From contig JAPYWJ010000014.1 of assembly GCA_028276405.1 (NCBI GenBank), positions 1-32,814 on the forward strand: 32,814 bases of DNA, given 5' to 3'. This stretch comes from Hydrogenobacter sp. Its GTDB lineage: Bacteria > Aquificota > Aquificia > Aquificales > Aquificaceae. Below are positions 6,806 through 10,221 of the stretch, in pieces. The position numbers and the translations under genes were made by a program. Position 1 is the stretch's first letter. Each line of letters begins with the position of its first letter. Under the pieces are notes generated by a model. The model did no database searches and was not told where the DNA came from. It worked only from the letters and a program-made list of their open reading frames with translations.

Positions 6806-7360
6806 TCAAATTACTATAACACCGTCCTTCCCATCAAATATCATAGCTTTACAAGACAAATAGCGCATTCCTGAAAGAAGACAAGCCAACGCATCAAGCT
6901 CATCTTGGTAATAATCTCTATCTTCCAAGGTAAAACCAATGGATTTATAGAAATTTTTTATAGCTTCTTTATCTTTCCTTTTTACACCAAAAATATCGTA
7001 CAAACCGCCCGGAAAAGTCTCAAAAACTTTTATCCCCTTAGCTTCTAAAATACCCTTAATCTTCAGTGCTCTTGCGGTTAACATTCTCATAGGTCCAAGA
7101 GTAACTGGGAAAAATCTTATACCATACATACGCAGTTTTATATCACATTCCCTAAAGTGTGGTCCTCTATCCTCTATGGTTCTTCTACCTTCTGGGAGAC
7201 TTAGTGGTGCATCTATCATAACAAGGTCAAAGTTTTGAGATAGCTTTAAAATGTGCTCATCTTCGTAAATGATACCCACTTTGAGCTTATCTTTTTCCAA
7301 GTATGCAAAGCCCGTTTTTCTTTTGGAACTTCCCGCTAAATCCAATCCCAAAACTTTCAT
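6806..7360 (-). CDS. DUF429-family predicted RNase H-like protein
   Basis: This 184-residue protein resembles the DUF429 family, predicted to adopt an RNase H-like fold with unknown biological role. The first strand VLGLDLAGSSKRKTGFA places an Asp at position 6 or so, as in RNase H-like active sites. A second acidic strand MIDAPLSLP and a C-terminal YYQDELDALACLLSG supply the other acidic residues. I start it at the ATG at 7358-7360. The frame extends upstream to 7396, but those extra residues do not match the family. It is divergent from the CcsA-like gene with only 19 bases between the two starts. Confidence 0.75.
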   Translation of the reverse strand: MKVLGLDLAGSSKRKTGFAYLEKDKLKVGIIYEDEHILKLSQNFDLVMIDAPLSLPEGRRTIEDRGPHFRECDIKLRMYGIRFFPVTLGPMRMLTARALKIKGILEAKGIKVFETFPGGLYDIFGVKRKDKEAIKNFYKSIGFTLEDRDYYQDELDALACLLSGMRYLSCKAMIFDGKDGVIVI

Positions 7361-7379
7361 ATATCTTAAACTATATAAG

Positions 7380-8136
7380 ATGCTGGTAATTAGCATAGGT
7401 TTCTACCTTTTGTCTTTTTTTGTGGCACTGCTTTTTTCTTACCGAGGTAAACTGCCAAACAGAGCTGTTTTTTTTTTCTATAATTCTTGCGCTTTTGTCT
7501 TACTTTGCCTATGTGTTTCACATGGGTTTCAAATTAGGTAGCTTTCCCTTTGCTAACATCTATGGGTTTATAGGGCTACTGGGAAATACCATGATACTTG
7601 CTCTTATGGTCTTTTCTTTAAAAAATCCCCAACTGCTCAGATTTTCCGCAGTATTTTCCTTTTTTGGGTTCTTGTCTGACCTGCTCGCACTACCTTCAGA
7701 ACCATCTCCCTACAGGAATCCTCTTTACTCTTTGCACATGCTTTCCGCTCTATTTGCTTATGCATGTGCCTTTTTTGGAGGTTTAGCGAGTTTCTTCAGA
7801 CTTTTGCTAGAGAAAAAACTAAAGCACAAAGACTTGCCAGCTTTTTCCTTACCCATAAACCTTCTTAGGTTTTCAGAAAGGCTTATGATAAACCTGTCCT
7901 TTGTCTTTTTTACTCTTACGCTCATCTTTGGAAGTTTCTGGACAAGGATACACTTTGGCAAACATTGGATAAACGACCCAAAACTACTCTTTACTTTGCT
8001 TTTGTGGATATACTATGCTTTTGTGGTTCACATGAACCTGGTGAAAGGCTTAAGACCCAGACAGCTTTCCGCTTTTATAATTTTAGGGAGTTTCCTCTCT
8101 CTCCTTAATTTACTGTTTGTTAGACATGAAGTTTGA
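7380..8136 (+). CDS. CcsA/ResC-like cytochrome c assembly protein, frame broken at a T10 tract
   Basis: The gene encodes a hydrophobic protein of the CcsA/ResC (HemX-like) cytochrome c assembly family. The C-terminal part has the tryptophan-rich/WDPK-like region FGSFWTRIHFGKHWINDPK, a His at HMLSALFAYA and a His at FVVHMN, matching the haem-handling layout. The natural N-terminus (MLVISIGFYLLSFF) starts at the ATG at 7380 in one frame, while the rest, from SIILALLSYFAYVFH onward to 8136, is in another. The switch falls at ten T residues (7468-7477): nine T would join the frames exactly. The downstream frame's own starts (7420, or the ATG near 7522) give poor N-termini. It may be restored by slippage, be a sequencing error, or be inactive. 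The 3' end overlaps aroK by 11 bases. Confidence 0.75.
7468..7477 (+). repeat. Homopolymer of ten T residues at the frame switch
   Basis: Ten consecutive T residues lie in the coding strand of the CcsA-like gene, exactly where the reading frame changes between its N-terminal and main parts. Runs of this length are known sites of RNA polymerase slippage and replication slippage, and also common sequencing-error sites. Confidence 0.85.
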
Positions 8137-8635
8137 GAGGATATTCCTCATAGGTTTTATGTGTAGTGGTAAAACCACCGTAGGTAGGATTCTGGCAGAA
8201 AAACTCCAGTGGCGTTTTTTTGACACAGACGAGGAGGTGCACAAAGAGGAAGGCATGAGTATAGAAGAGATCTTTGACAAGAAAGGCGAAGAATACTTTA
8301 GAGATGTGGAGTTAAAAGTTCTCAAAAGGTTATCATTAGAAAAAGAGGTGGTGATAAGCACGGGTGGAGGTCTTGGTGCTAACCAACAAGCTTTACGGAT
8401 CATGAAAGAAAGAGGCTTAGTGGTATGGCTTGATGTAAGTTTTGATAACTTTATACAAAGGTGTGCAGGAGATAACAACAGACCTATGCTGAGGAAAAGT
8501 CCAGAGGAGCTTAAAGCTTTATATGAACAAAGAAGACAAAAGTATTTACAGGCTCATATTCAGATGAGCGCACAGACAGAACCTCAAAAGATAGCAGAGA
8601 AGGTCATTCAATTAGTTCAAGACGGGAAAATATAA
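8126..8635 (+). CDS. aroK: Shikimate kinase
   Basis: Shikimate kinase phosphorylates shikimate at the 3-hydroxyl with ATP, the fifth step of the chorismate pathway. The 169-residue protein has Walker A GFMCSGKTT (10-18), the substrate-binding Asp35 in DTDEEV, Arg59 in YFRDVE, STGGG (78-82), and the lid-region Arg in NNRPML. I use the ATG at 8126. An in-frame TTG at 8117 is possible but less likely. It overlaps the CcsA-like gene by 11 bases and its last 32 bases overlap ndk, which converges from the other side. No Shine-Dalgarno is visible, so it is probably coupled to the upstream gene. Confidence 0.95.
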   Translation: MKFERIFLIGFMCSGKTTVGRILAEKLQWRFFDTDEEVHKEEGMSIEEIFDKKGEEYFRDVELKVLKRLSLEKEVVISTGGGLGANQQALRIMKERGLVVWLDVSFDNFIQRCAGDNNRPMLRKSPEELKALYEQRRQKYLQAHIQMSAQTEPQKIAEKVIQLVQDGKI

Positions 8636-9104: not shown

Positions 9105-9110
9105 TATAAT
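9105..9110 (+). promoter_or_regulatory. -10-like TATAAT at the start of the Tat-exported protein gene
   Basis: TATAAT at 9105-9110 overlaps the first two bases of the ATG at 9109. If this is the -10 box, transcription would begin near 9117 and the GTG at 9121 would be the start. No good -35 is present, which would fit activator dependence on the nearby dyad. A second TATAAT occurs at 9078-9083. Confidence 0.35.
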
Positions 9111-10221
9111 GGTTGCTAAGGTGAAAAGAAGAGAGTTTATAAAACTTATCTTGGGAGCGTTAGCAGGCAGTTGGCTAAACTGTGGGGGTGGTGGGAACTC
9201 TGGGGTTTCATCGTTGGCACCCGCACCTTATACGCCTGCACCATCTACGCCTATAGCACCCAAAACTATAAAATTCGGGTTGGGGATGGACCCAGAAAGA
9301 ATGGTTGACGCCTACGACCCAGATGGTAAAAGAGTACTGGATGCCATAAAACCTAACATACTCTGCATGTGGATAAACGGTGCCAGAGATTATCAAGGGA
9401 GGATATACTCTCCAAGCATGCAATATGTAAGGGAATGGGCAAGCAAAGGCAGGTTTCAAGAGTGGTCGGGTATGGGATATGAGCTTATGGTGATCACATG
9501 GGAAAATTACGATGGACAAAACCCTGCTCTGGGACCTGCTACTTATGGAGATTATCACATCTCCTCACAGTTTCTTGAAGACCTAAGAGAGCTCCTTAGC
9601 TATCTTGTGCTTCAGTTTAAAAACAAGATTTACTTTGCTTTGGCTACAGAACAGTCCACCTACAGCGCTTGTAGATATGACAGAACATGCCAAGATCCTT
9701 ATGCCTACTCTGATAGGATAAACTCTACAACACAAGAATACTTTGGACCTCTGAGAGATAATCTACAGAGAGCGGTTGGGTTAATAAGAGCTCAGATGCC
9801 CTCCGCGGATGTAGGCATATGCTTTGGAGGTTGGCTTGTAGAATTTGACGAAGGCATAAACTTTATAAAGTACTTTGAACCAGTCATTACAAGTAGCAGC
9901 GCCATATTCTTCCAGAGCATGATGGGGATAAAAGCAAGCGAGAATAGTGGCTATGGAAATCCAGAAAGGATACTGAAAAACTGTCAGTTTTTCTCTGCGT
10001 ATGGAAAACCCATACATCTGGCTCACTACATGCCAAGCAGCAAAAGGGCAGATGTGGTAGCGGAAGATATGGATCGCATGTCTAAACCAGACTATTTGAG
10101 ACAACTTGTGCAGTATCTTTCCAGCTTTTCTTTTATGGATTATGGACTTCTAAAAGATAACGCCTATGGCTGTTTAGATGCTACCGTTAGGTTCCGACAA
10201 TCTCTTAGAGCCATCCTTTAA
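9109..10221 (+). CDS. Uncharacterised exported protein with a Tat-type signal
   Basis: I do not recognise this protein. With the ATG at 9109 it has 370 residues. A GTG at 9121 (366 residues) fits the promoter better. The N-terminus has a twin-arginine-like motif (KRREFIK) and a hydrophobic stretch ending in a Cys followed by glycines (NCGGGG), so it may be a Tat-exported lipoprotein, although the residues before the Cys are not a canonical lipobox. A Pro/Ala/Thr-rich linker (about residues 34-53) precedes a globular domain of about 315 residues rich in Tyr and Trp. Strand-like pieces such as IYFALATEQS and KPIHLAHYMPS suggest a TIM-barrel, perhaps glycosidase-like, fold. That is inference only. 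It is divergent from ndk and precedes hom. Confidence 0.8.
   Translation: MVAKVKRREFIKLILGALAGSWLNCGGGGNSGVSSLAPAPYTPAPSTPIAPKTIKFGLGMDPERMVDAYDPDGKRVLDAIKPNILCMWINGARDYQGRIYSPSMQYVREWASKGRFQEWSGMGYELMVITWENYDGQNPALGPATYGDYHISSQFLEDLRELLSYLVLQFKNKIYFALATEQSTYSACRYDRTCQDPYAYSDRINSTTQEYFGPLRDNLQRAVGLIRAQMPSADVGICFGGWLVEFDEGINFIKYFEPVITSSSAIFFQSMMGIKASENSGYGNPERILKNCQFFSAYGKPIHLAHYMPSSKRADVVAEDMDRMSKPDYLRQLVQYLSSFSFMDYGLLKDNAYGCLDATVRFRQSLRAIL

Follow-up and report, generated by a model that had tools for sequence, protein, structure and literature searches.

A CcsA-like gene of Hydrogenobacter split at a ten-T run: probably an error of sequencing or assembly, or a mutation of very recent date, and not a regulatory switch

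A CcsA-like gene of Hydrogenobacter sp. is divided between two reading frames at a run of ten T (T10). Since the run is not conserved and other genes of the same genome break at similar runs, the likeliest cause of this split is an error of sequencing or assembly, or else a mutation that arose very recently, and not a regulatory switch. The reading preferred here, with a probability of about 0.55, is that the extra T is a homopolymer error in the draft assembly and would be absent from the organism. The window, that is, the whole stretch of DNA analysed (32,814 nt), is part of a draft assembly of 55 contigs and 1.36 Mb (G000), which was compared with four Hydrogenobacter congeners (G001-G004), G002 being its nearest relative. 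The portion read was 1.338 of 1.365 Mb for G000 and 0.98 of 1.74 Mb for G004. The coordinates of the features discussed are collected in Table 1.

Table 1. Features of the window (plain positions) and of other contigs of G000 (contig and position)
Feature	Position	Strand	Remarks
N-terminal reading frame, CcsA-like gene	7380-7541	+	ATG start, 53 aa, stop at 7539-7541
T10 homopolymer, frame junction	7468-7477	+	nine (or twelve) T would restore the frame
Second reading frame (+1), PF01578 Cytochrom_C_asm	7420-8136	+	orthologous residues from codon 7477-7479
aroK (shikimate kinase)	8126-8635	+	11-nt overlap with the CcsA-like stop; overlap common to all four congeners
DUF429 gene, divergent, upstream of the CcsA-like gene	6806-7360	-	start taken at MKVLG
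370-aa ORF	9109-10221	+	lipoprotein-like N-terminus, without a Pfam match
pabB (chorismate-binding), split at A10	G000:C49:49850-49859 (L044)		halves match one Pfam domain
ArsP-type permease (PF03773), split at A9-G-A7	G000:C13:6279-6295 (L038)		halves match one Pfam domain
Cytochrome oxidase subunit III, split at A7	G000:C2:26433-26439		comparison with 0.98 Mb of G004
HyfE-like gene, two opposite shifts about 140 nt apart	G000:C35:7915-7920 (A6) and about 8052-8058 (T7)		tract scan
A9 of LplA-DUF116 gene	G000:C35:5102-5110 (L043)	-	also L081, L084, L103 and L104

The T10 run is preceded by ...CAGAGCTG and followed by CTATAATT. The first 29 codons of the ATG-7380 frame are orthologous to those of the relatives, and the remaining 219 codons downstream of the run are read in the +1 frame. 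When nine T are read, a protein of 251 aa is obtained that matches intact orthologues over its whole length. Both the meeting of two frames of a CcsA-like gene at this tract and the continuous product given by nine T had been proposed in the initial annotation, and both were confirmed, the former together with the match to PF01578. No other run of T or A in the window reaches nine, and T10 is one of three A/T 10-mers in the 1.34 Mb read. Chance alone would put runs of nine T into the window (mean 2.7 in shuffles); what goes beyond chance is the junction, since the 29 upstream and 219 downstream codons align to two parts of one continuous protein in four congeners.

A homologue of the gene was found in 59 of the 61 related genomes searched; wherever the match is complete the gene has no interruption, and it is broken in G000 alone. 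The nearest orthologue, that of G002, shows 93% identity over 251 aa. The relatives share the N-terminus (MLVIS...) of the ATG-7380 frame and begin at the same methionine; a start downstream of the tract, an arrangement considered in the initial annotation, is therefore excluded as the ancestral state. At the positions of the nine T, G002 reads T-C-T7 and G001, G003 and G004 have mixed codons, so that no such tract is present in the congeners and it is private to G000. A C/T difference left the run uninterrupted in the G000 lineage, and one further T breaks the frame. The dN/dS ratio (Nei-Gojobori, window against G002) is 0.057 over the 219 codons after the tract and 0.175 over the 29 codons before it, the value for the neighbouring aroK being 0.134. 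Comparison with G002 revealed no second lesion in the CcsA-like gene besides T10. Old decay is therefore unlikely, as had been argued at the outset; what is left is a break that is recent, rescued or not real.

The protein matches PF01578 with 81 bits (gathering cut-off 29.9; E=1.3e-22) and shows a weak profile match to the solved CcsA and CcmC chains. It resembles CcsA/ResC, the System II cytochrome c synthase subunit (TIGR03144 'CcsB', PF01578), in its family and its conserved histidines, of which four (H119, H195, H217 and H249; alignment A2) are invariant in 16 orthologues. Unlike CcsA/ResC, it lacks the W-x-WD motif, G-x-HW-x-x-D-x-K-L standing at the place of the WWD heme-handling motif, and with 62.5 bits it lies far under the TIGR03144 equivalog cut-off of 187.6. 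The gene is a second, divergent CcsA/HemX-like membrane protein gene of Aquificaceae, and a heme-related role of its product is probable. The canonical CcsA of G000 is encoded separately on C21 and is intact (306 aa, GGYWSWDPKE, TIGR03144 score 251.1 bits), and the canonical ResB, also intact and of full length (550 aa), lies elsewhere. Because of these two genes, loss of the CcsA-like gene need not stop cytochrome c maturation, and the earlier suggestion that maturation is what would be switched was not supported.

As aroK overlaps the end of the CcsA-like gene, early termination of the latter might also lower aroK translation. The upstream neighbour of the CcsA-like gene varies (window 6806-7396; loci L004-L007): the divergent DUF429 gene is found in G000 and G002, and a different membrane-protein gene takes its place in G001, G003 and G004; aroK downstream is constant. 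Further along the window lies the 370-aa ORF listed in Table 1.

Frame breaks in the rest of the genome were sought by a census of G000 against G004, which took in some 670 G000 genes, about half of them all. In its final form, non-overlapping ORFs were kept and leftover candidates were judged by eye. A first census and a stop-codon scan were set aside, as antisense ORFs and stop-to-stop extensions 5' of true starts dominated their output. The census is blind to short N-terminal pieces, and the CcsA-like split itself is absent from it. The frame breaks accepted by eye all lie at A/T runs of seven or more, and no convincing nonsense mutation was found among the approximately 670 genes compared with G004. 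The G004 control, a genome of finished size, gave two candidate splits in 686 genes, neither at long runs.

As would be expected of an assembly error, G000 contains further homopolymer-associated breaks, in the genes for pabB, the ArsP-type permease, oxidase subunit III and a HyfE-like protein. The pabB orthologues are intact single ORFs of 330-363 aa in all six relatives checked, and those of the permease are intact single ORFs of 284-320 aa. The lesion of the permease gene may not be the A9 itself; only 1 nt separates it from an A7, and across the two runs the net change is +1. Orthologues of oxidase subunit III are intact in four genomes, and a second copy of this gene was not found in G000. 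The oxidase III gene of G001 and the second copy of G003 also appear incomplete or split. The HyfE-like case is the weakest of the four, as its matches in the genomes compared reach only 45-48% identity. The shifts required at the runs are minus one for the CcsA-like gene and the HyfE T7, plus one for oxidase III and the HyfE A6, and plus one or minus two for pabB.

With respect to run length, six 9-mers and three 10-mers of A or T are present in G000, nine runs in all, of which six are coding. Three of these six are split, namely the CcsA-like T10, the pabB A10 and the permease A9 with its adjoining A7, and three are in frame. Both coding 10-mers and one of four coding 9-mers are thus broken, and no break was recognised among 94 coding 8-mers. 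In G001-G004, the coding tracts of at least nine that were inspected, which for G002 and G003 are a part of the tracts present, are all in frame (11/11). Next to 120 A/T 8-mers, G000 has just these nine longer runs, and extrapolation from the shorter runs predicts roughly 30; this drop is consistent with a slippage cost or selection against such runs.

According to the preferred reading, the real gene would encode an ordinary, selected and intact CcsA/HemX-like protein of 251 aa. Its codons would happen to read T9 in the G000 lineage, the C that interrupts the run in G002 being T here, and the deposited sequence would have one T too many, from a homopolymer-length error in the draft assembly. 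Such an error is favoured because the indels sit at A/T runs only, go in both directions and extend down to runs of 6-7, and because the breaks strike useful genes (pabB and the only subunit III gene found) without nonsense mutations. The uninterrupted orthologues, the selection on both sides of the tract and the in-frame long tracts of the congeners also speak for it, as does the increase of breaks with run length in G000. Against it, real replication slippage would likewise break longer runs more often, the breaks are few, and the remainder of the window's genes appear intact. Illumina reads usually give a T10 its right length, so that an assembly made from them would also count against an error. 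A sequencing error was one of the options listed in the initial annotation; the breaks in four other genes favour it, or else a genome-wide tolerance of slippage, over a gene-specific cause. A real and very recent expansion from T9 to T10, in the organism or in part of its population, is a tentative alternative, in which RNA polymerase slippage would give some nine-U transcripts and hence the full 251-aa protein. T10 is above the run length from which slippage is known in bacteria, purifying selection is intact on both sides of the junction, the deficit of long A/T runs in G000 is consistent with a slippage cost, and natural slippage climbs steeply with length, as do the breaks from 8-mers to 10-mers. 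Two features of Blochmannia-type rescue, an A/T run of at least nine at the junction and purifying selection on both sides, are present in the CcsA-like gene. This alternative is weakened by the breaks at runs of 6-7, where rescue is unexpected, and by the tract being found in no relative.

The privacy of the tract also removes comparative support for phase variation or programmed slippage; phase variation and polymerase slippage had been suggested before tract lengths in relatives were compared. Adaptive ON/OFF switching of the CcsA-like protein between T9 and T10 would suit a gene that encodes a membrane protein and, like contingency loci, has a long homopolymer close to its 5' end, but the absence of the tract from the congeners, the genome-wide avoidance of long coding runs in G000 and a product whose family does not point to a surface antigen make it highly improbable. 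That the gene is a young pseudogene, just lost and without rescue, is very unlikely. The paralogue might be dispensable, given the canonical CcsA and ResB, but a homologue is kept in nearly all the genomes searched; with a dN/dS near 0.06 downstream and a single lesion, it could be a pseudogene only if very recent. The least probable of the readings is a product made through frameshifting on the ribosome or from an internal start at TTG 7420. The downstream frame is indeed open from 7420, but a Shine-Dalgarno-like sequence is not apparent before it, and the codons from there to the tract do not match the relatives in that frame; a ribosome would need to shift by +1 (or -2), not by the common -1, and the downstream RNA fold is unexceptional (z -1.2), no stimulatory structure having been found.

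Slippage at A/T runs has been described from several bacteria. Selection against such runs is evident at nine in many bacterial genomes, and an A9 slippage site was described in dnaX of Thermus thermophilus (PMC1088944). Blochmannia tolerates frameshifts in A/T runs, and rescue by RNA polymerase slippage was proposed (PMC3017870). In Citrobacter rodentium, the A11 of tssM gives about 20% frameshifting, and slippage was shown (PMC4256274). A literature search found no paper on slippage in Hydrogenobacter. G000 is similar to Buchnera and Blochmannia (PMC3017870), in that single indels lie in long A/T runs of genes that are otherwise intact and selected, with several genes per genome. It differs from them in being a free-living thermophile with 41% GC and in including runs of 6-7 nt. 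The G000 T10 has in common with the tssM A11 and dnaX A9 that a run of 9-11 nt (A in those two cases) would give a product that is out of frame or alternative; those sites were shown experimentally, whereas T10 is private to one assembly. It is unlikely, though conceivable, that this Hydrogenobacter, a free-living thermophile, has real frameshifts in A/T runs of 9-10 in several conserved genes and expresses these genes via slippage of RNA polymerase, which has been described mainly for endosymbionts of insects.

If the breaks were real, slippage-tolerated frameshifts would be extended to a free-living deep-branching thermophile. If they are errors, several frame breaks of G000 at A/T runs would be annotated as pseudogenes, and folate synthesis, respiration and heme handling would be the pathways so misread, which is a caution.

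A different run was noticed on C35 of G000, an A9 that all five Hydrogenobacter genomes have in a gene whose product of about 730 aa contains LplA, DUF116 and CO_dh-epsilon domains. The run is uninterrupted and lies at E-K-K-R. In the five genomes read, the slipped +1 and -1 frames stop within 4-7 codons, so that the LplA part alone would remain. A search with a degenerate codon pattern, in which G was allowed at every A-or-G position, recovered the site in 14 genomes of five Aquificaceae genera. Exactly nine A are present in 14/14, even where the flanking codons have changed (GAT AAA AAA AAA CTT; GAA AAA AAA CTC), and in G000 genes AAA accounts for only about 54%, and GAA for only about 58%, of the codon pair to which each belongs. 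From its conservation, this A9, which shares the anatomy of the Thermus dnaX site, looks like a candidate for programmed slippage of the dnaX type during transcription, and it is a far better slippage candidate than the T10 of the CcsA-like gene.
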